NCBI GenBank assembly: GCA_028871345.1
Contig: JAGWNK010000007.1
Span: 1 to 64,000, forward strand
Source of the DNA: Alphaproteobacteria bacterium
Lineage (GTDB): Bacteria; Pseudomonadota; Alphaproteobacteria; Micropepsales; Micropepsaceae
Length of the DNA: 64,000 nt
Direction: 5' to 3'
Both the position numbers and the translations under genes were made by a program. Of this stretch, positions 7,065 through 16,261 are shown in pieces (position 1 is the stretch's first letter; the number at the start of each line of letters is the position of its first letter). The notes beneath the pieces were generated by a model. It ran no database searches, was not told where the DNA came from, and was given only the letters and a program-made list of their open reading frames with translations.

Positions 7065-7439
7065 TCACGCCCGCTTGCGCGATTTCGCCAGTAACCCGCG
7101 CTTGCGCTGCACGGTCGGCGATTTCTCGGCCACGGCCAGGGCGCGCCGCACCCATTGCGCCAGTTCCTCAGGCTCGTCGTAGAGCCGTTCCGGGATCCGG
7201 TAATAGGAGAGCGAGACCCCCTGCCCCGTCTTCTTGCGGTAGGTGAAGGGTGCGCAGCCCTCGGCGAGGAATTCGTCGCGGTTGGTCGCGTCGGTCTTGA
7301 GGTAGATCAATTCGTCGATGACGATTCCGACCATGGCGTCGCCGACGAACAGACCCAGTCCGCCGAACATGCGCCGGGCGTGGATCGTGCCGAAATGTTC
7401 GAAGAGTTCCGGGCGATAGGGTTCCGCCGCGGGGCGCAT
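7065..7439 (-). CDS. TfoX/Sxy N-terminal domain protein
   Basis: A 124-residue single-domain protein of the TfoX N-terminal family. Diagnostic stretches are ARRMFGGLGLFVGDAMVGIVIDE, then LIYLKTDATNR, and YYRIPERLYDEPEELAQWVRRAL. The C-terminus is basic (RKRGLLAKSRKRA). I start at the ATG at 7439, two bases after the sufA stop, so it is almost certainly translated as the last gene of the SUF operon. TfoX/Sxy proteins regulate competence in gammaproteobacteria; the role of the short alphaproteobacterial members is unknown. A link to Fe-S or stress regulation is inferred only from position. Confidence 0.8.
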   Translation of the reverse strand: MRPAAEPYRPELFEHFGTIHARRMFGGLGLFVGDAMVGIVIDELIYLKTDATNRDEFLAEGCAPFTYRKKTGQGVSLSYYRIPERLYDEPEELAQWVRRALAVAEKSPTVQRKRGLLAKSRKRA

Positions 7440-7441
7440 CG

Positions 7442-7828
7442 TCAGTCGGCCTTGGCCGGCGTGATCGAGACCGATTCCCCGCAGCCGCATGCCGCGGTCT
7501 GGTTGGGGTTGTTGAACACGAAGCGGGCGCCGAGTTTCTCGCGCACGTAATCCATCTCGGTGCCGACGAGGAAGAGAATGGCCTTGGGGTCGATGAAGAC
7601 CTTCACGCCCTTGTCCTCGACCACTTCCTCGAAGGGCTTGGCGCTTTCGGCATAGTCCATGGTGTAGCTCATGCCGGCGCAGCCGCCGTTGGTCACGCCG
7701 ACGCGCACGCCCAGGTATTTGCCATCGGCGTTGGCGATGATCTCGCGCACGCGGGCGGCCGCGGCGTCCGACAGGTGGATCGCCTTGGGCCGCTCGCGCC
7801 GGGGCTTGGTTGTCGTCGGTTCGCTCAT
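7442..7828 (-). CDS. sufA: Fe-S cluster assembly/carrier protein SufA (A-type, HesB/IscA family)
   Basis: A-type Fe-S carrier of 128 residues that receives clusters from SufBCD and passes them to apo-enzymes. The three conserved cysteines are present: one in NGGCAGMSY and two in the C-terminal CGCGES. A basic N-terminal extension (TKPRRERPK) precedes the domain. The start codon overlaps the sufT stop by one base (TGATG), which indicates translational coupling. It could equally be called erpA or iscA; I use sufA because of the operon. Confidence 0.92.
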   Translation of the reverse strand: MSEPTTTKPRRERPKAIHLSDAAAARVREIIANADGKYLGVRVGVTNGGCAGMSYTMDYAESAKPFEEVVEDKGVKVFIDPKAILFLVGTEMDYVREKLGARFVFNNPNQTAACGCGESVSITPAKAD

Positions 7829-8196
7829 CAGTACATGTTCAGTTCGAGTTTGGCTTCTTCGCTCATGCGGTCCGGTGTCCAGGGCGGATCGAAGGTCATG
7901 GTGACCGTCACCTGGCCGATGCCTTCCACCGCTTCGAGCGCTTCCTTGACCATGTTGGGCATCTCGCCCGCCACCGGGCAGCCCGGCGCGGTCAGCGTCA
8001 TGTCCACCGAGACGTCCTTGTTGTCCGCAACGTCCACCTTGTAGATGAGGCCCAGCTCATAGATGTCCACCGGGATTTCCGGATCGTACACGGTCTTGAG
8101 CGCCGCCACGAGCTTGGCCGTGAAGGCCTCAAGCTCCGCCGGCGGGATCGCCGATGTTGCGCCGTTTTCGTCGACGTTCTGCATCTCCAGGCTCAT
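7828..8196 (-). CDS. sufT: SUF system Fe-S assembly protein SufT (DUF59/MIP18 family)
   Basis: A 122-residue DUF59 (MIP18) protein assisting Fe-S maturation. Key features are VYDPEIPVDIYELGLIY, the LTAPGCPVAGEMPN segment with the conserved Cys, and VTMTFDPPWTPDRMSEEAK near the end. I chose the ATG at 8196 because it makes an ATGA overlap with the sufU stop; an open extension upstream lies inside sufU. SufT helps load clusters during high demand in bacteria where it has been studied. Its position between sufU and sufA fits that role. Confidence 0.92.
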   Translation of the reverse strand: MSLEMQNVDENGATSAIPPAELEAFTAKLVAALKTVYDPEIPVDIYELGLIYKVDVADNKDVSVDMTLTAPGCPVAGEMPNMVKEALEAVEGIGQVTVTMTFDPPWTPDRMSEEAKLELNMY

Positions 8197-8645
8197 TCGG
8201 TCTTGGCGACGCCACCCTCCAAGGCTGATTTCATCGTATGCCAGGCCAGCGTCGCGCACTTCACGCGCATCGGGAAGGCAGACACCCCGGCCATGACATT
8301 GAGACGGTCACGGTCGTCGGCGTCGAGACCGCCGGCGTCCTCGCCCTTGACGAGATGGAGGAAGCCGCCCATCAGCGTCTCGGCCTCGGCCACGGTGCGC
8401 CCGGCCAGCATGTCGGTCATCAGCGACGCCGAGGCCTGGCTGATGGCGCAGCCCCGGCCCTCGAAGCTGATGTCCTTGATGCGGCCGTCGTCGCCGACGG
8501 AAAGGTAGATCTTCACCCGGTCGCCGCACAGCGGGTTGTGCCCCTCGCCGGTGTGCGAGGCATGGTCGAGCGGCCCGAAATGGCGCGGGTGCCGCGAGTG
8601 ATCGAGGATCACTTCCTGATAGAGTTCGCGCAGACTGTCGTCCAT
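8193..8645 (-). CDS. sufU: SufU/IscU-like sulfur transfer or scaffold protein
   Basis: A 150-residue SufU-type protein. The three conserved Cys-containing stretches are NPLCGDRVKIYL, EGRGCAISQAS and VKCATLAW, the zinc/sulfur-handling residues of the SufU/IscU family. The insertion region around GFLHLVKGED is typical of SufU. It accepts persulfide sulfur from SufS and replaces SufE, which is absent here. The ATG at 8645 sits two bases after the sufS stop; a TTG six bases upstream is an alternative. Confidence 0.92.
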   Translation of the reverse strand: MDDSLRELYQEVILDHSRHPRHFGPLDHASHTGEGHNPLCGDRVKIYLSVGDDGRIKDISFEGRGCAISQASASLMTDMLAGRTVAEAETLMGGFLHLVKGEDAGGLDADDRDRLNVMAGVSAFPMRVKCATLAWHTMKSALEGGVAKTE

Positions 8646-8647
8646 GC

Positions 8648-9889
8648 TCAACCCAGGATCTTCCTGGCCTTCTCCAGGCCTGCGACCAGTGCCTCCACGT
8701 CCTCGCGCGTCGAATAGAGCGCGAACGAGGCGCGGGTCGTCGAAACCACGCCGAAGCGGTCCATCAGCGGCTGGGCGCAGTGATGCCCGGCGCGGACCGC
8801 CACGCCTTCACGATCCAATATGGTGGCCAGATCGTGCGCGTGCATCCCCTCGGCCTCGAAAGACAGGATGGCGCCTTTCGCGGGGGCGTCGCCGACCAGG
8901 CGCAGCCAGTTGAAGGGGCGGACCGCGTCCCTCGCGTAGGAGAGGAGCGACAATTCATGGGCCTTGACCGCCGCCCGGTCGAAGGCGGTGATGTAGTCGA
9001 GGGCGGCGGCCAGCCCCACGCTTTCGATGATCGGCGGCGTGCCGGCTTCGAAGCGGGCCGGCGGATCGGCATAGGTGATCTTGTCGCGGGTGACCTCGCG
9101 GATCATCTCGCCGCCGCCCAGCATGGGCCGCATGGCTTTGAGGTGCGCCATCTTGGCGTAGAGCGCGCCGATGCCGGTGGGACCGTAGAGCTTGTGGCCG
9201 GTGATCACGTAGAAATCGGCGTCCAGCTCGCGGACATCGACGACCTCGTGCACCGCGCCTTGGCAGCCGTCGACCAGGACGGGAACGCCGCGCGCATGCG
9301 CCGCGGCGATGATGGCCTTCAGCGGCGACACGGTGCCCAGCACGTTCGACATGTGGGTGACCGCCACCAGCTTGGTGCGCGGGCCGATGGCCTCGGCTAC
9401 CGCCGCCGCACCGAGCGAGCCGTCGTCGGCCACGTCCACCCATCGGAGGACGGCGCCGTCGCGCTCGCGCAGGAAATGCCAGGGGACGATGTTGGAGTGG
9501 TGCTCCATCACCGTCAGCACGATCTCGTCGCCGGGCTCGATGCGCGGCGCCAGCCACGACGAGGCCACCAGGTTGATGGCCTCGGTGCCGTTGCGCGTGA
9601 AGACGATCTCGTCCGCCGAGCGCGCGCCCAGGAAGCGGCGCACGGTCTCGCGCGCTTCTTCGTAGCGCTGGGTCGCCACGGCCGAAAGATGATGCACGCC
9701 CCGGTGGACATTGGCGTATTCGGAGGTGGCGAATGCCTCCATGGCCTCCAGCACCCGCCGCGGCTTCTGCGCCGAGGCCGCGCTGTCGAGATAGGCGAGC
9801 GGCTTGCCGTGCACCGGCCTGGCGAGGATCTCGAAATCCCCGCGCGGAGGCACGAAGGCCGGCGATGTCGCTTTGGTCTGCGCCATCAT
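8648..9889 (-). CDS. sufS: Cysteine desulfurase SufS (group II)
   Basis: PLP-dependent enzyme of 413 residues converting cysteine to alanine plus an enzyme persulfide for the SUF scaffold. The PLP lysine is Lys233 in VITGHKLYGPTG, and the active-site cysteine is Cys371 in RAGHHCAQPLMDRFG, the group II signature. RNGTEAINLVASSW and THMSNVLGT are the usual cofactor-binding stretches. The ATG at 9889 gives an ATGA overlap with the sufD stop. The open frame upstream of this lies within sufD and is not part of the protein. Together with the iscS-like gene at 13704-14834 the operon carries two desulfurases. Confidence 0.95.
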   Translation of the reverse strand: MMAQTKATSPAFVPPRGDFEILARPVHGKPLAYLDSAASAQKPRRVLEAMEAFATSEYANVHRGVHHLSAVATQRYEEARETVRRFLGARSADEIVFTRNGTEAINLVASSWLAPRIEPGDEIVLTVMEHHSNIVPWHFLRERDGAVLRWVDVADDGSLGAAAVAEAIGPRTKLVAVTHMSNVLGTVSPLKAIIAAAHARGVPVLVDGCQGAVHEVVDVRELDADFYVITGHKLYGPTGIGALYAKMAHLKAMRPMLGGGEMIREVTRDKITYADPPARFEAGTPPIIESVGLAAALDYITAFDRAAVKAHELSLLSYARDAVRPFNWLRLVGDAPAKGAILSFEAEGMHAHDLATILDREGVAVRAGHHCAQPLMDRFGVVSTTRASFALYSTREDVEALVAGLEKARKILG

Positions 9890-11022
9890 CGTGCCTGCTC
9901 CAGGGCGCGCGGCAGTACGGCCTCGATGTCGCGCCAGACCGCGGCGCGCAATTCGTCGTTGCCGATCTCGGCCACGGCTTCCTCGAGAAAGGCGCGCACC
10001 AGGAGCCGGCGCGCCTCGCGTTCCGGGATGCCGCGCGAGCGCAGGTAGAACAGGGATTCCGCGTCCAGGTCGCCGACCGCGGCGCCGTGGGCGCATTTCA
10101 CGTCGTCGGCGAAGATGATGAGTTCCGGCTTGAGATCGGCTTCGGCGCGCGTGCTGGTCAGGACGGCCTTGGCCGTCTGGCGGCTGTCGGAGCCGTTGGC
10201 GCCTTCGCGCACCGTGATCTTGCCCTGGTAGGCCGAGCGCGACTTGCCGCCGGCCACGTGCTTGAACTGTTGCGTCGAGTGGGTCTTGCCGGCGGCGTGC
10301 TCGATATGCGTGGTCACGTCCGCGTGGCTTTCGCCGCCCAGCACGTTGACTCCGGAGATGTGCGCCTCCGCGCCTTCTTCCCTGAGCACGAGATGGAGTT
10401 CGGTCCGCGACAGGCGCGAGCCGAAATTGGCGAAATGGGCGCGGTAGCGGGCGTCACGGGCCTCGCCCACCGCGATGTGCTCGACGGTGAACGACTTGGG
10501 CGCATTCGGAGCGATGCGCACGTGAGTCAGTTCGGCGCCTCGCCCCAGCGCGATCTCCACACCGACATTGCGCAGCAGGCCGGCGTCGACGGCATGGGTC
10601 TCGGCAAGCGTCAGGCAGGCGCCTTCCTCGAGCACGATCAGCAGCCGCAGATTGCCGGTGGAGCTCACCGTCAACGGCAAGATTTGGGGGATTTTGCGGT
10701 CCTTGGCGACGCGCAGCGCCGCGCCGCCCTGGGCGAACGCCAGCGATGCTTCTTCCATGGTCGGGCGGTTGCCGATGTTGCCCAGGTTCTTGACGACCCA
10801 GTCGGGCGGCGCGGGCTTCGCCAGATCGAACACTTCGACGCCGTCGGGCACTTCGCCGATCTGCCAGTGGGCGGTGCCGGCGGCGGCAACCTGTCCGGCA
10901 TCGAGCACTGCGCGCAGGTCGCTGTAGCGCCAGTGCTCGAAGCGGCGATGCGGCATGCCGCGGACGCGGAAGCTTTCGAGGGCTTCGGCCTTGCGTGCTT
11001 CGATGGGCGAAACCGCGCTCAT
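9886..11022 (-). CDS. sufD: Fe-S assembly scaffold subunit SufD
   Basis: SufD, 378 residues, a beta-helix protein paired with SufB in the SufBC2D scaffold. The sequence has the family's RRFEHWRYSDLRAVL N-terminal segment and, near the C-terminus, ELIIFADDVKCAHGAAVGDLD followed by LFYLRSRGIPEREARRLL, which hold the conserved Cys and His of the SufB/SufD interface. It overlaps sufC by four bases (ATGA) upstream and sufS by four bases downstream. Confidence 0.95.
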   Translation of the reverse strand: MSAVSPIEARKAEALESFRVRGMPHRRFEHWRYSDLRAVLDAGQVAAAGTAHWQIGEVPDGVEVFDLAKPAPPDWVVKNLGNIGNRPTMEEASLAFAQGGAALRVAKDRKIPQILPLTVSSTGNLRLLIVLEEGACLTLAETHAVDAGLLRNVGVEIALGRGAELTHVRIAPNAPKSFTVEHIAVGEARDARYRAHFANFGSRLSRTELHLVLREEGAEAHISGVNVLGGESHADVTTHIEHAAGKTHSTQQFKHVAGGKSRSAYQGKITVREGANGSDSRQTAKAVLTSTRAEADLKPELIIFADDVKCAHGAAVGDLDAESLFYLRSRGIPEREARRLLVRAFLEEAVAEIGNDELRAAVWRDIEAVLPRALEQAR

Positions 11023-11768
11023 GCCGGCTCCTTGGCCACCTGGGCGTAGCCCTTCGCTTCCAGTTCGAGGGCGAGTTCCTTGCCGCCTTCGGCGACGATG
11101 CGTCCGCCCGCCAGCACGTGCACACGATCGGGCACGATGTAGGTCAAGAGGCGCTGGTAATGGGTGATCACCAGCATGCCGCGCTGCGGCGAGCGCGTGG
11201 CGTTGACGCCGTCGGCCACCAGCTTGAGGGCATCGATGTCCAGCCCGGAGTCGGTCTCGTCGAGGATCGCCAGCTTCGGCTCGAACAGCGACAGCTGCAG
11301 GATCTCCAGGCGCTTCTTCTCGCCGCCGGAGAAGCCGACATTGAGGGGGCGCTTGAGCATCTCTTCGCTGACCTGCAGCGCCTCGGCCTTCTTACGCACG
11401 AGCTTCAGGACGCTCATGGCGTCGAGTTCGCTGTCGCCGCGGGCGCGCCGCTGGGCGTTGAGTGCCGTCTTGAGGAAGGTCAGCGTGCTGACGCCGGGAA
11501 TCTCGACCGGATACTGCATCGCCAGGAAGATGCCCTTGGCGGCGCGTTCTTCCGTCTTCAACTGGAGCAGATCGTGACCGTCATAGCTGATCGAGCCAGC
11601 GGTGACCTCGTAACCCTCGCGCCCCGCCAGCACGTAGGAGAGCGTCGACTTGCCGGAGCCGTTCGGCCCCATGATGGCATGCATCTTGCCGGCCTCGACG
11701 GTGAGCGTGAGGCCTTGGAGGATTTCCTTGCCGTCGACGGCGGCATGCAGGTTCTTGATCTCGAGCAT
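11019..11768 (-). CDS. sufC: SUF system ATPase SufC
   Basis: ABC-type ATPase of 249 residues that powers SufBCD. Walker A is GPNGSGKST, the ABC signature is FSGGEKKRLEI, Walker B is LAILDETDSGLD and the switch His is in VITHYQRLL. No membrane segments are present. I use the ATG at 11768; the preceding TTG would add five residues overlapping the cupin gene. The ATG shares one base with the cupin stop (TAATG), so the two are coupled. Confidence 0.96.
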   Translation of the reverse strand: MLEIKNLHAAVDGKEILQGLTLTVEAGKMHAIMGPNGSGKSTLSYVLAGREGYEVTAGSISYDGHDLLQLKTEERAAKGIFLAMQYPVEIPGVSTLTFLKTALNAQRRARGDSELDAMSVLKLVRKKAEALQVSEEMLKRPLNVGFSGGEKKRLEILQLSLFEPKLAILDETDSGLDIDALKLVADGVNATRSPQRGMLVITHYQRLLTYIVPDRVHVLAGGRIVAEGGKELALELEAKGYAQVAKEPA

Positions 11769-12243
11769 TATTCGCCATCCCAATAGTCGCAGGGCGAGAC
11801 CCGCCCGCGCGTCGAAAACGTCTTGTTCGCCAGGTCGAAGGCCTTGACGCCGGCCCGCACGCCGATCTTTCCGGAGTCGGGATATTCCACAACGTCGGCG
11901 CTGGTGTAGTTCGAGAAGCCGAGATAGCGCAGCTCATCGCTTCCCGTATTGATGATCTGATGTGCCTCGCCACCCGCCGGGGCGCTGAGGCAATCGCCGG
12001 CCTTCACCGGCAGCCGCTGCTCGCCGAAGCGATACTCGCCTGTTCCGGAGAGGACGAGGAACAGCTCGTCGCACTCGTGATGACGATGGAAGGGGAAGGC
12101 GATCTTGCCGGCAGGCACGACATGAAGCATGCAGCCCATGTATTTGAGGCCCAGCGCTTCGCCGACTTCACCGATCCGCACGGCGAACTTCTCGCCGTTC
12201 GAGAACGGCTTGAGCTCCAGATCGGCGGGGTTGACGACCGGCC

Positions 12244-12247
<4 letters not shown>
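11768..12247 (-). CDS. Cupin-domain protein embedded in the SUF operon
   Basis: A 159-residue single-cupin protein. The first cupin motif is seen as [20 protein letters not shown] with three His and two Glu/Asp as candidate metal ligands; the second region includes [19 protein letters not shown]. The C-terminal 50 residues ([18 protein letters not shown], then [10 protein letters not shown]) have one Cys. It overlaps sufB by four bases and sufC by one, so it is an integral, co-translated member of the operon. Cupins bind Fe, Mn, Zn or Ni, and a role in metal sensing or supply is plausible but unproven. It is not a standard Suf protein. Confidence 0.85.
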
Positions 12248-13703
<1,456 letters not shown>

Positions 13704-13707
<4 letters not shown>

Positions 13708-14834
13708 GCGGCTGCGCGCGGACGGACGCGCGCAACAAGGTTGGAAATGGCGGCAAGGGCCGCATCAACGTCGGCTCCGGTAGAGTCCCAGCCGAAACTG
13801 GCGCGCAGCGCGCAACGTGCCAAGTCTTCTCTTACACCCATTGCGGCAAGGACGTGTGACGGCTTGACGCTCCCCGAAGAACATGCCGCACCGGAACTCA
13901 TCATGACGCCATCCAGGTCCAGCGCCATCAGCGCCGTTTCGGCCGGGATGCCCGGCAAGGCGAAGTTCGAGGTGTTCCCCAGGCGCGGCGAAGCTTCTGC
14001 AAAGATGATCGCATCCGGCATGACCCGCCGCACGCCCTCTTCGAAGCGATCGCGCAACCCGCTCGATGCGTCCGTCCCCGCCGCCTCGGCCGCCGCGCCG
14101 AAGGCTGCGATTCCCGCGAGGTTTTCCGTTCCGGCCCGGCGGCCATGCTCCTGGCCGCCGCCGACCATCTGCGCTGCGAACGGAGCGTCGCGCACGACAA
14201 GGGCACCGGTACCCTGCAGGCCGCCGATCTTGTGCGCCGACAGGGTCACATAGTCGGCCGCGGGTACCGGCATTTTTCCCGCTGCCTGCACGGCGTCTAC
14301 GAACAAGAGCGCGCCGGCTTCGGCGGCGATCGACGATGCCTCCGCAACGGACTGGATCGCGCCCGTCTCGTTGTTGGCGGCCATCAAGGCGATCAGCGCC
14401 CGGCCCTTGCCTTCGCGCAGGGCCTTGCGCACGCTGTCGAGCACGATCACGCCATCGGGGGCGCAGGGGACGATCTCCAGCCTGATGCCCGCCATGCGTT
14501 CCGCGGCGGCCGCAGCGGCGGCCAGCACGGTTTCATGTTCGATGGCCGAGACGAACAGCCGCGTGATGCGCGAACCCGCAACCGCCGCGCCCTGGACCGC
14601 GCTCCACAGGGCTAGGGCGTTCGCTTCCGTGCCGCCGCTCGTGAAGACGACCTGCGAGGGTTTCGCCCCGGCGAAAGCGGCGACCTGTTCGCGTGCCGCC
14701 TCGATCATCGCGCGCGCGGCGCGGCCGCGGCCATGCACCGAGGACGCGTTGCCGCCGAGGGTCAGCGCGCGCTCCATGATCCCTTTCGCCTCGGGACGCA
14801 GAGGCGAAGTCGCGTTGTAATCGAGGTATGCCAT
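13704..14834 (-). CDS. Cysteine desulfurase, IscS/NifS-like (group I)
   Basis: Aminotransferase class V protein of 376 residues. PLP lysine is Lys202 in [15 protein letters not shown], and the mobile active-site loop reads [17 protein letters not shown] with Cys318, which marks group I desulfurases. The start [14 protein letters not shown] and [13 protein letters not shown] are standard. It lies 18 bases after iscR and overlaps sufB, so it is the first enzyme gene of the SUF operon. With sufS downstream, the operon encodes both types; this one may feed tRNA thiolation or other sulfur acceptors, which is inference. Confidence 0.93.
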
Positions 14835-14852: not shown

Positions 14853-15341
14853 TCAGGCGGCGGCGCGGCTATCCCCATCCTGCGCCGGTACTTCGGACGA
14901 CTGCAGGTCGAGCTGGGCGCGGCCAAGCACGCGTTTCTCGACGACATCGGCCAGCGAGACAGACGACAAGAAGACATGGATCTGCCGGCCGAGCTCTTCC
15001 CACAGGTCGTGGGTGATGCAGCGCGCGCCTTGCGTGGCGCATCCTTTGGCGCTGCCCGGCTTGCAGCGCGTCGCCGTGATCGGCTCGTCGACTGCCATGA
15101 TGATGTCTGCGACGCGGACTTCTTCGGACGGCCGGCTCAGCCTGTAGCCGCCGCCGGGACCGCGCACGCTGGAGACTAGGCCGTTGCGCCGCAGCTTGGC
15201 GAACAGCTGTTCGAGGTACGAGAGCGATATTTCCTGCCGTTCCGCAATGTCCGCAAGCGAGACCGGGCGCGAGCCGGCCTCATGCGTGGCCAGGTCGGCC
15301 ATCGCCATCACCGCATAACGACCTTTGGTGCTGAGTCTCAT
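14853..15341 (-). CDS. iscR: Rrf2-family Fe-S regulator IscR
   Basis: Winged-helix regulator of 162 residues. The ATG at 15341 gives the classic MRLSTKGRYAVMAMADLA start. The DNA-binding helix is in EISLSYLEQLFAKLRRNGLV, with the wing VRGPGGGYRLSR. Candidate cluster ligands are Cys93, Cys101, Cys108 and His111 (CITHDLW), spaced slightly wider than in E. coli IscR but in the same order, so it should bind a [2Fe-2S] cluster. First gene of the SUF operon, preceded by a promoter with an IscR-like operator, so it probably represses its own operon when cluster-loaded. The three cysteines favour IscR over RirA, but RirA-like function cannot be excluded. Confidence 0.92.
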   Translation of the reverse strand: MRLSTKGRYAVMAMADLATHEAGSRPVSLADIAERQEISLSYLEQLFAKLRRNGLVSSVRGPGGGYRLSRPSEEVRVADIIMAVDEPITATRCKPGSAKGCATQGARCITHDLWEELGRQIHVFLSSVSLADVVEKRVLGRAQLDLQSSEVPAQDGDSRAAA

Positions 15342-15436
15342 GGTCTTACTCCAAACTGCCGCGCGCGTTTTTCTTGCCCTTGGGGGGGCGCACTGGTGTA
15401 TGAACAACCATCAAGCGCGTGGCGTCTTCCCTTAGG

Positions 15437-15604: not shown

Positions 15605-16261
15605 ATGCCTGATATCATTCTTCCCGGCCCAGCGGGCCGCATTGAGGCGCGATATCAGCGGCAAAAGGCCCCGGGCGCGCCAATGGCACTCGTTCTGCAT
15701 TCGCACCCGCAATTCGGCGGGACTATGAACAACCCGCTGGTCTACGACCTCTTTCACATGTTCCACGGCCTCGGTTGCACCGCGGTCCGCTTCAATTTCC
15801 GGGGCGTCGGGCGCAGCCAGGGAACGTTCGATTCGGGCTCGGGGGAACTGTCCGACGCCGCCGCCATCCTGGACTGGATGAACACGCTCTATCCCAACCC
15901 CTCTTTCGTCTGGATCTGCGGCATCTCGTTCGGCGCGTGGATCGGCATGCAGCTTTTGATGCGCCGCCCCGAGATCACCGGGTTCGTCTCCATCGCCCCG
16001 CCGGCCAGCATGTACGATTTCGCCTTCCTGGCGCCCTGCCCGGCTTCGGGACTCATCGTCCATGGGACAAAGGACCTCGTGGTCCCCGAAGGCGATGTGC
16101 AGAAACTGGTGGACCGGCTGACGGCCCAGAAGGGCATCAAGATCACCTATGAGAAGATCGAAGGCGCCAATCATTTCTTCGACAAGCACGAGGGCGACGT
16201 GGTCGAAATGGTCAAGGAATACGTCCACCGCCGGATGACCCAGCCGCACGAGGGTCGCTGA
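15605..16261 (+). CDS. Alpha/beta hydrolase
   Basis: A 218-residue alpha/beta hydrolase of the short cytosolic type. The nucleophile elbow reads GISFG, preceded by FNFRGVGRSQG. The catalytic acid is likely in HGTKDLVVP and the His in EGANHFFD. This matches a widespread proteobacterial family annotated as alpha/beta hydrolase or dienelactone hydrolase-like, with unknown substrate. The ribosome-binding site is gaggaaa. It is divergent from iscR across 263 bases. A TPR gene follows, 23 bases after its stop. Confidence 0.85.
   Translation: MPDIILPGPAGRIEARYQRQKAPGAPMALVLHSHPQFGGTMNNPLVYDLFHMFHGLGCTAVRFNFRGVGRSQGTFDSGSGELSDAAAILDWMNTLYPNPSFVWICGISFGAWIGMQLLMRRPEITGFVSIAPPASMYDFAFLAPCPASGLIVHGTKDLVVPEGDVQKLVDRLTAQKGIKITYEKIEGANHFFDKHEGDVVEMVKEYVHRRMTQPHEGR

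Follow-up and report, generated by a model that had tools for sequence, protein, structure and literature searches.

Organization of the isc-suf locus

The window (the whole stretch of 64,000 nucleotides that was analysed) carries on its minus strand a single gene run from position 15407 down to 7442, comprising in this order genes for an IscR-like regulator and a NifS/IscS-like desulfurase, sufB, a cupin gene, sufC, sufD, sufS, sufU, a gene for a SUF-associated protein and one for a sufA-like carrier. The Rrf2 regulator heading the run (14853–15407) scores 194.8 bits against TIGR02010, below the cut-off of 207.55, and lies above cut-off for the Rrf2 superfamily model TIGR00738; C-x7-C-x6-C-x2-H is visible in its sequence. 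The NifS/IscS-like protein (13704–14834), the second cysteine desulfurase of the run, reaches 305.4 bits with TIGR03402, under the equivalog cut-off of 530.75. Matches above cut-off identify sufB (12244–13707; TIGR01980, 637.9 bits) upstream of the cupin gene, sufC (11019–11768; TIGR01978, 349.7 bits) downstream of it, sufD (9886–11022; TIGR01981, 234.2 bits), the cysteine desulfurase gene sufS (8648–9889; TIGR01979, 534.3 bits), sufU (8193–8651; TIGR01994, 154.9 bits) and the gene for the SUF-associated FeS_assembly_P protein (7828–8259; TIGR02945, 155.9 bits). The sufA-like A-type carrier (7442–7828) scores 131.3 bits with TIGR01997, slightly below the cut-off of 136.2, and matches TIGR00049 above cut-off. 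The start of sufS was set from the profile match, the listed reading frame extending upstream to 10096, and the supported start of sufC is the ATG at 11768, as opposed to the TTG at 11783 in the program-made list of open reading frames. A second U-type scaffold was considered and rejected, as the IscU model matches SufU alone in the window's genome, and this under its cut-off. Immediately downstream of sufA lies a gene for a TfoX_N protein (7065–7490, minus strand), and nine of the 33 suf-linked loci in the named survey described below have a similar gene; an alpha/beta hydrolase gene (15605–16261, plus strand) adjoins iscR in divergent orientation.

The cupin gene (11768–12247, minus strand) is an open reading frame of 159 codons with a Pfam Cupin_2 match. 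As the preliminary description had stated, it is inserted between sufB and sufC and overlaps both: the sufB stop codon TGA and the cupin ATG share the four nucleotides ATGA (12244–12247), and the cupin stop codon TAA shares one nucleotide with the ATG of sufC in TAATG (11766–11770). Its base composition (GC 0.627, GC3 0.806) looks native beside those of sufB (0.620 and 0.863) and sufC (0.649 and 0.884). In the eight relatives lacking the cupin whose junction was compared, sufB ends in a TAATG or TGATG shared with sufC; the cupin gene is thus seated seamlessly in an otherwise coupled junction.

The layout of the window follows that of the isc-suf operons of R. sphaeroides and C. crescentus, which consist of iscR, two desulfurase genes and a co-transcribed sufB-X-sufC-sufD segment (PMC4618611, PMC11475020, PMC6956336). 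In those operons X is a hypothetical protein or a putative ADP-ribosylglycohydrolase, and the portions of the papers available to us mention no cupin occupant, whereas X of the window is a cupin. RT-PCR results given in the accessible text indicate co-transcription of the run in R. sphaeroides, where the insert is the hypothetical protein RSP_0439, a further promoter lies upstream of sufB and the authors assume one operon (PMC4618611), and likewise in C. crescentus, where a small frame annotated as an ADP-ribosylglycohydrolase occupies the slot (PMC11475020). The non-annotated frames of the operon are described as variable (PMC6956336). By analogy, the window cupin would be co-transcribed with the isc-suf genes and may be under IscR control in this organism. 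A search of the open-licence PMC literature found no description of a cupin in the sufB–sufC slot, and none of the papers it brought up with both 'cupin' and a suf term places a cupin beside suf genes in its accessible text.

The cupin protein and its metal site

The window cupin matches Pfam Cupin_2 with an E-value of 4.7e-16 and 58.7 bits, against a gathering score of 27.2. The view that it is no known Suf component holds, as none of the NCBIfam models, those of the curated Suf proteins included, matches it at E≤0.001. Its AlphaFold2 model (AF2; mean pLDDT 93.5) and the structure comparison assign it the double-stranded beta-helix cupin fold. The 50 structural matches listed have Z-scores from 12.2 to 20.4; many are titled cupins, and we take the remaining ones to be cupins by class. 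The two best folds are structural-genomics cupins, AFE_0303 (PDB 3l2h; Z 20.4, rmsd 2.1, 147 aligned residues) and SPO2919 (PDB 3i7d; Z 19.3, rmsd 2.1, 142 aligned residues), the next match having a Z-score of 14.9. 3l2h, in which all four metal ligands align, ranks first both by fold and in the sequence comparison with the PDB (E 1.7e-14), 3i7d being the second entry by fold and the third by sequence; identity to the window cupin in the structural alignment is only 24% and 22%, respectively. Both entries are titled 'sugar phosphate isomerase', an annotation label of the depositors, and the open-licence PMC search found no tested function for AFE_0303 or SPO2919 and no paper naming SPO2919.

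In cupins, three histidines and one glutamate from motifs 1 and 2 act as metal ligands. The corresponding putative ligands of the window protein are H54, H56, E61 and H96, and the His/Glu site earlier ascribed to this single-cupin protein is intact. Thirty-five suf-linked relatives were aligned with 70 others (six very divergent rows of 111 were left out): all four residues are kept in 35/35 suf-linked proteins, and those not seen beside suf genes keep H54, H56 and E61 in 70/70 cases and H96 in 69/70. EYPDSGK and a C-terminal Y-x-x-G-E are retained in both sets alike. Members with intact motifs that were not seen beside suf genes include Myxococcota and gammaproteobacterial rows, and the non-suf relatives of Rhizobium, Sinorhizobium, Devosia, Xenorhabdus and others share with the window protein the family, the ligands and EYPDSGK. 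Since motifs and ligands are kept in and outside suf operons, the chemistry seems to be a trait of the whole family and not of its suf-linked members alone. One and the same set of ligands can hold different metals in different cupins, according to the available part of one study (PMC7689651).

These data bear on the role proposed in the preliminary description, a SUF-specific one in metal handling, as a metallochaperone or in quality control, which would make the cupin a putative partner of SufBC2D. The location of the gene between, and coupled with, two genes whose products belong to the same complex, the intact metal site and the recurrence in the slot all speak for it, as do six positions (9, 23, 26, 40, 51 and 83, including M at 40 and F at 51) at which suf-linked members are distinct from the rest, though close relatives of the window protein are over-represented in the suf-linked set. 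The invariant motifs, however, are also those of members for which no neighbouring suf gene was seen, haloarchaea and cyanobacteria have sequence relatives too, and no cysteine column reaches 80% among suf-linked members, C39 being present in 66%.

Distribution of the slot cupin

In the order to which the window belongs, the cupin was found at E≤1e-20 in 7 of 96 genomes and was absent from the other 89. Six of the seven adjoin sufB and the seventh lies on a 3 kb contig without any suf gene. As sufB itself is present in 81 of the 96 genomes at E≤1e-150, the slot cupin accompanies it in six of those 81. Among 30 sufB loci of the order that were fetched, three contain the cupin, whereas sufB and sufC lie no more than 5 nt apart in 20 and are separated by 151–221 nt in seven; the interval is therefore too short for a cupin in 27 of the 30. 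Close relatives whose sufBCD genes are intact have no cupin homologue anywhere in the genome at E≤1e-20. SUF can thus do without the cupin, which, unlike a core SUF component, does not accompany the operon in all close relatives. Together with the shared motifs, the missing cysteine column and the hot-spot nature of the slot considered below, this makes the proposed SUF-specific role improbable.

Beyond the order, a motif-limited scan ([DE][VLI][VI]EYP[DA]SG) for relatives in named genomes retained the best 80 of 289, leaving 209 aside, and favours the closest relatives and carriers of that motif. Thirty-three of these best 80 of 289 sit in an isc-suf operon; both sufB and sufC flank the cupin in 29, and the other four (L045, L074, L076 and L080) end at a contig edge. 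The remaining 47 of the 80 contain no SufB, SufD, SufS or SufU match at E≤1e-6 within fetched flanks of up to 6 kb. The 33 loci carry 13 plausible NCBI family names and one implausible Bacillaceae label; many are metagenome bins, and isolates of Cucumibacter, Bauldia, Maricaulis and Mameliella are also among the carriers. Among 33 loci inspected for this (the window, L013 and 31 named loci), four have a slot shared by two family cupins, namely L046, L054, L066 and L097. The contig titled Oceanobacillus sp. HTM 045 (L103) bears an operon of alphaproteobacterial type whose SufB groups with that of Mameliella; it is probably mislabelled or part of a mixed assembly.

A different picture is given by an even sample of the class, in which sufB was found in 130 of 192 genomes and 120 regions downstream of it were fetched, with sufC within 5 kb in 119. 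None of the 120 contains a slot cupin, although the same profile recovered known slot cupins as a positive control. Consequently, selection for linkage must be weak or local, and the result still counts against a general role of the slot cupin. One further genome of the sample (G164), whose sufB is split across two contigs, does carry the cupin (L013). Family f70, which is centred on G164 and was hence picked for having a case, contains sufB in 59 of 60 genomes. Its slots were readable to sufC in 55 of 57 fetched regions and, with G282 and G164 added, in 57, seven of which hold the cupin; a separate cupin search found the family in 9/60 genomes at 10 places, seven of them beside sufB.

In all, the cupin family occupies the sufB–sufC slot in 41 loci (the window, 33 named and seven of f70) that span several deep subclades. 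An accident of one lineage, suggested at first by the 0/120, was dropped in view of the 7/57 in f70 and the 33 of the best 80 of 289 named relatives. The sufB-cupin-sufC synteny, whose survey had been proposed earlier, thus recurs in distant alphaproteobacteria, far from randomly, but its distribution is patchy.

The sufB–sufC junction as an insertion hot spot

Insertions are concentrated at the junction of sufB and sufC, a hot spot with many unrelated occupants. With starts set by homology, gaps of at least 250 nt were found in the class sample in 15/119 sufB–sufC junctions, compared with 2/117 sufC–sufD junctions; with the most upstream starts, the counts were 13/119 and 1/117. Pfam identifies RidA-like, YbjQ-like, Uma2, nucleotidyltransferase, CaMKII_AD/SnoaL-like and AAA_21 proteins in the slot, and a PIN-like frame as well as additional RidA-like and YbjQ-like frames were recognized by eye only.

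The cupin could therefore be a passenger in a hot spot, tied to Fe-S assembly by nothing beyond its expression there. The asymmetry of the gaps, the variety of unrelated genes that the slot takes and the absence of the cupin from most genomes of the order fit such a reading. A random gene, however, would not recur as one family in so many slot loci and deep subclades, sometimes twice per slot, and the cupin accounts for 7 of the 17 sufB–sufC intervals of at least 250 nt in f70. We consider a mere passenger unlikely, though a serious competitor.

History of the slot cupins

In a tree of 86 of the 111 cupins, the suf-linked label requires 7 changes, against a mean of about 27 after shuffling; in a 59-row tree with second copies added the figures are 7 and about 17. 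As near-copies cluster a label by themselves, these low counts show clustering and not one origin. Strict vertical inheritance of one slot cupin was rejected: a single clade is incompatible with the data for Hyphomicrobiales (p-AU 3.5e-6), for Oceanicaulis plus Maricaulis (0.007) and for the window's family (0.011), while for the window's genus rejection was not reached (0.058). These tests used 28 of the 35 suf-linked cupins, and the groups, though taxonomic, were defined once the tree was known. Identity to the window protein is 66% for the Cucumibacter cupin and only 32% for its SufD, and in a locus of the window's own genus (L043) the values are 59% for the cupin and 51% for SufD. To judge from these comparisons, the slot cupins do not follow the relationships of the organisms. 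Either tandem ancestors or paralogues once resided in the slot and were differentially lost, or cupins may have arrived repeatedly. Within the order, the SufB tree needs four changes of cupin presence, of which the starred branches force only one. No raised identity was seen at the 3' end of sufB or the 5' end of sufC that would indicate recombination through them.

Possible role of the window cupin

We favour the reading that the window cupin has an accessory function as a metal-dependent small-molecule cupin and is expressed along with isc-suf, a prediction to which we assign a probability of roughly 0.58. A random insert would not account for so specific a recurrence, sufBCD is retained in near relatives that lack the cupin, and the motifs of the cupin are not SUF-specific; the accessory cupin is thus preferred to a passenger, and then to a SUF partner. 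The slot cupin accordingly seems to be an accessory protein that turns up repeatedly, not an overlooked component of SUF. The sufB–sufC junction would act as a tolerant slot in which an inserted gene comes under the control of the operon, and family cupins may have been kept, lost, duplicated or exchanged there many times. Placed in the isc-suf operon, the cupin would be synthesized alongside the Fe-S machinery, whose level in Caulobacter increases under iron shortage, and selection may have acted on this co-expression. The protein itself, predicted to lie outside the core of SufBCD, would bind or enzymatically convert a small molecule with the help of its metal.

To our knowledge, the iron source of SUF and its accessory factors are still open questions. 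A gene with a metal site, encountered repeatedly between two core suf genes in carriers of 13 plausible family names, is a candidate that can be tested at little cost. The sufB–sufC junction appears to be a slot for accessory genes in an essential operon, and its census lists candidates co-expressed with Fe-S assembly. A bolder proposal, which we advance as a speculation and regard as distinctly unlikely, is that the slot cupins serve alphaproteobacterial Fe-S assembly as a recurrent auxiliary factor whose versions can be exchanged: their subtypes, single or paired, would have settled in the slot because synthesis beside nascent SufB and SufC allows them, when iron is scarce, to work on the SufBC2D scaffold during its assembly or on the iron or sulfur by-products of the scaffold.

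As a special case of the accessory cupin, the protein might be a protective oxidase or detoxification enzyme directed against redox-active aromatics or quinones harmful to Fe-S clusters. The window cupin is probably a member of COG3837. The fungal cupins AtD and PatJ of COG3837 take part in epoxyquinone formation, according to the accessible text of one report (PMC12356543). TcmJ and RemF are among the weaker matches of the window cupin, and wrbA and a VOC gene are found close to a plasmid-borne relative. Cupin fold similarity, however, predicts no substrate, and other members have different neighbours; a relative on pSymB, for example, adjoins GNAT and rib genes. We regard such an enzyme as very improbable.

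Further genes of the slot

Small membrane proteins of about 83–103 amino acids with an N-terminal WF motif occur in the slots of L044, L054, L071, L097, L013, L270 and L347, and no Pfam model matched the three that were scanned (L044, L097 and L347). Six of the seven come directly or closely after a cupin. An obligate partnership with the cupin was considered, as the protein follows a cupin in six distinct loci, but was rejected: a protein similar by eye is present in the cupin-less slot of L347, and genome G268, which has its cupin match at another place, contains two copies of the small membrane protein.

RidA-like genes are found in the slot of L070 (6483–6971; Ribonuc_L-PSP by Pfam) and, by eye, in those of L069, L079 and L109. 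RidA proteins protect PLP enzymes in other settings, and two PLP desulfurases are encoded in the isc-suf operon in which these slot genes occur. Three loci of the class sample (L239, L262 and L264) have in common a MazG-like frame of 91–95 amino acids in the sufB–sufC slot, recognized by eye, with no convincing Pfam match for L239. In the sufB–sufC slot of L374 (1471–3248), an AAA_21 ATPase gene and a weak DUF4276 frame below cut-off follow a cupin and a SnoaL-like frame seen by eye; the AAA_21 and DUF4276-like genes look like a defence-type pair.
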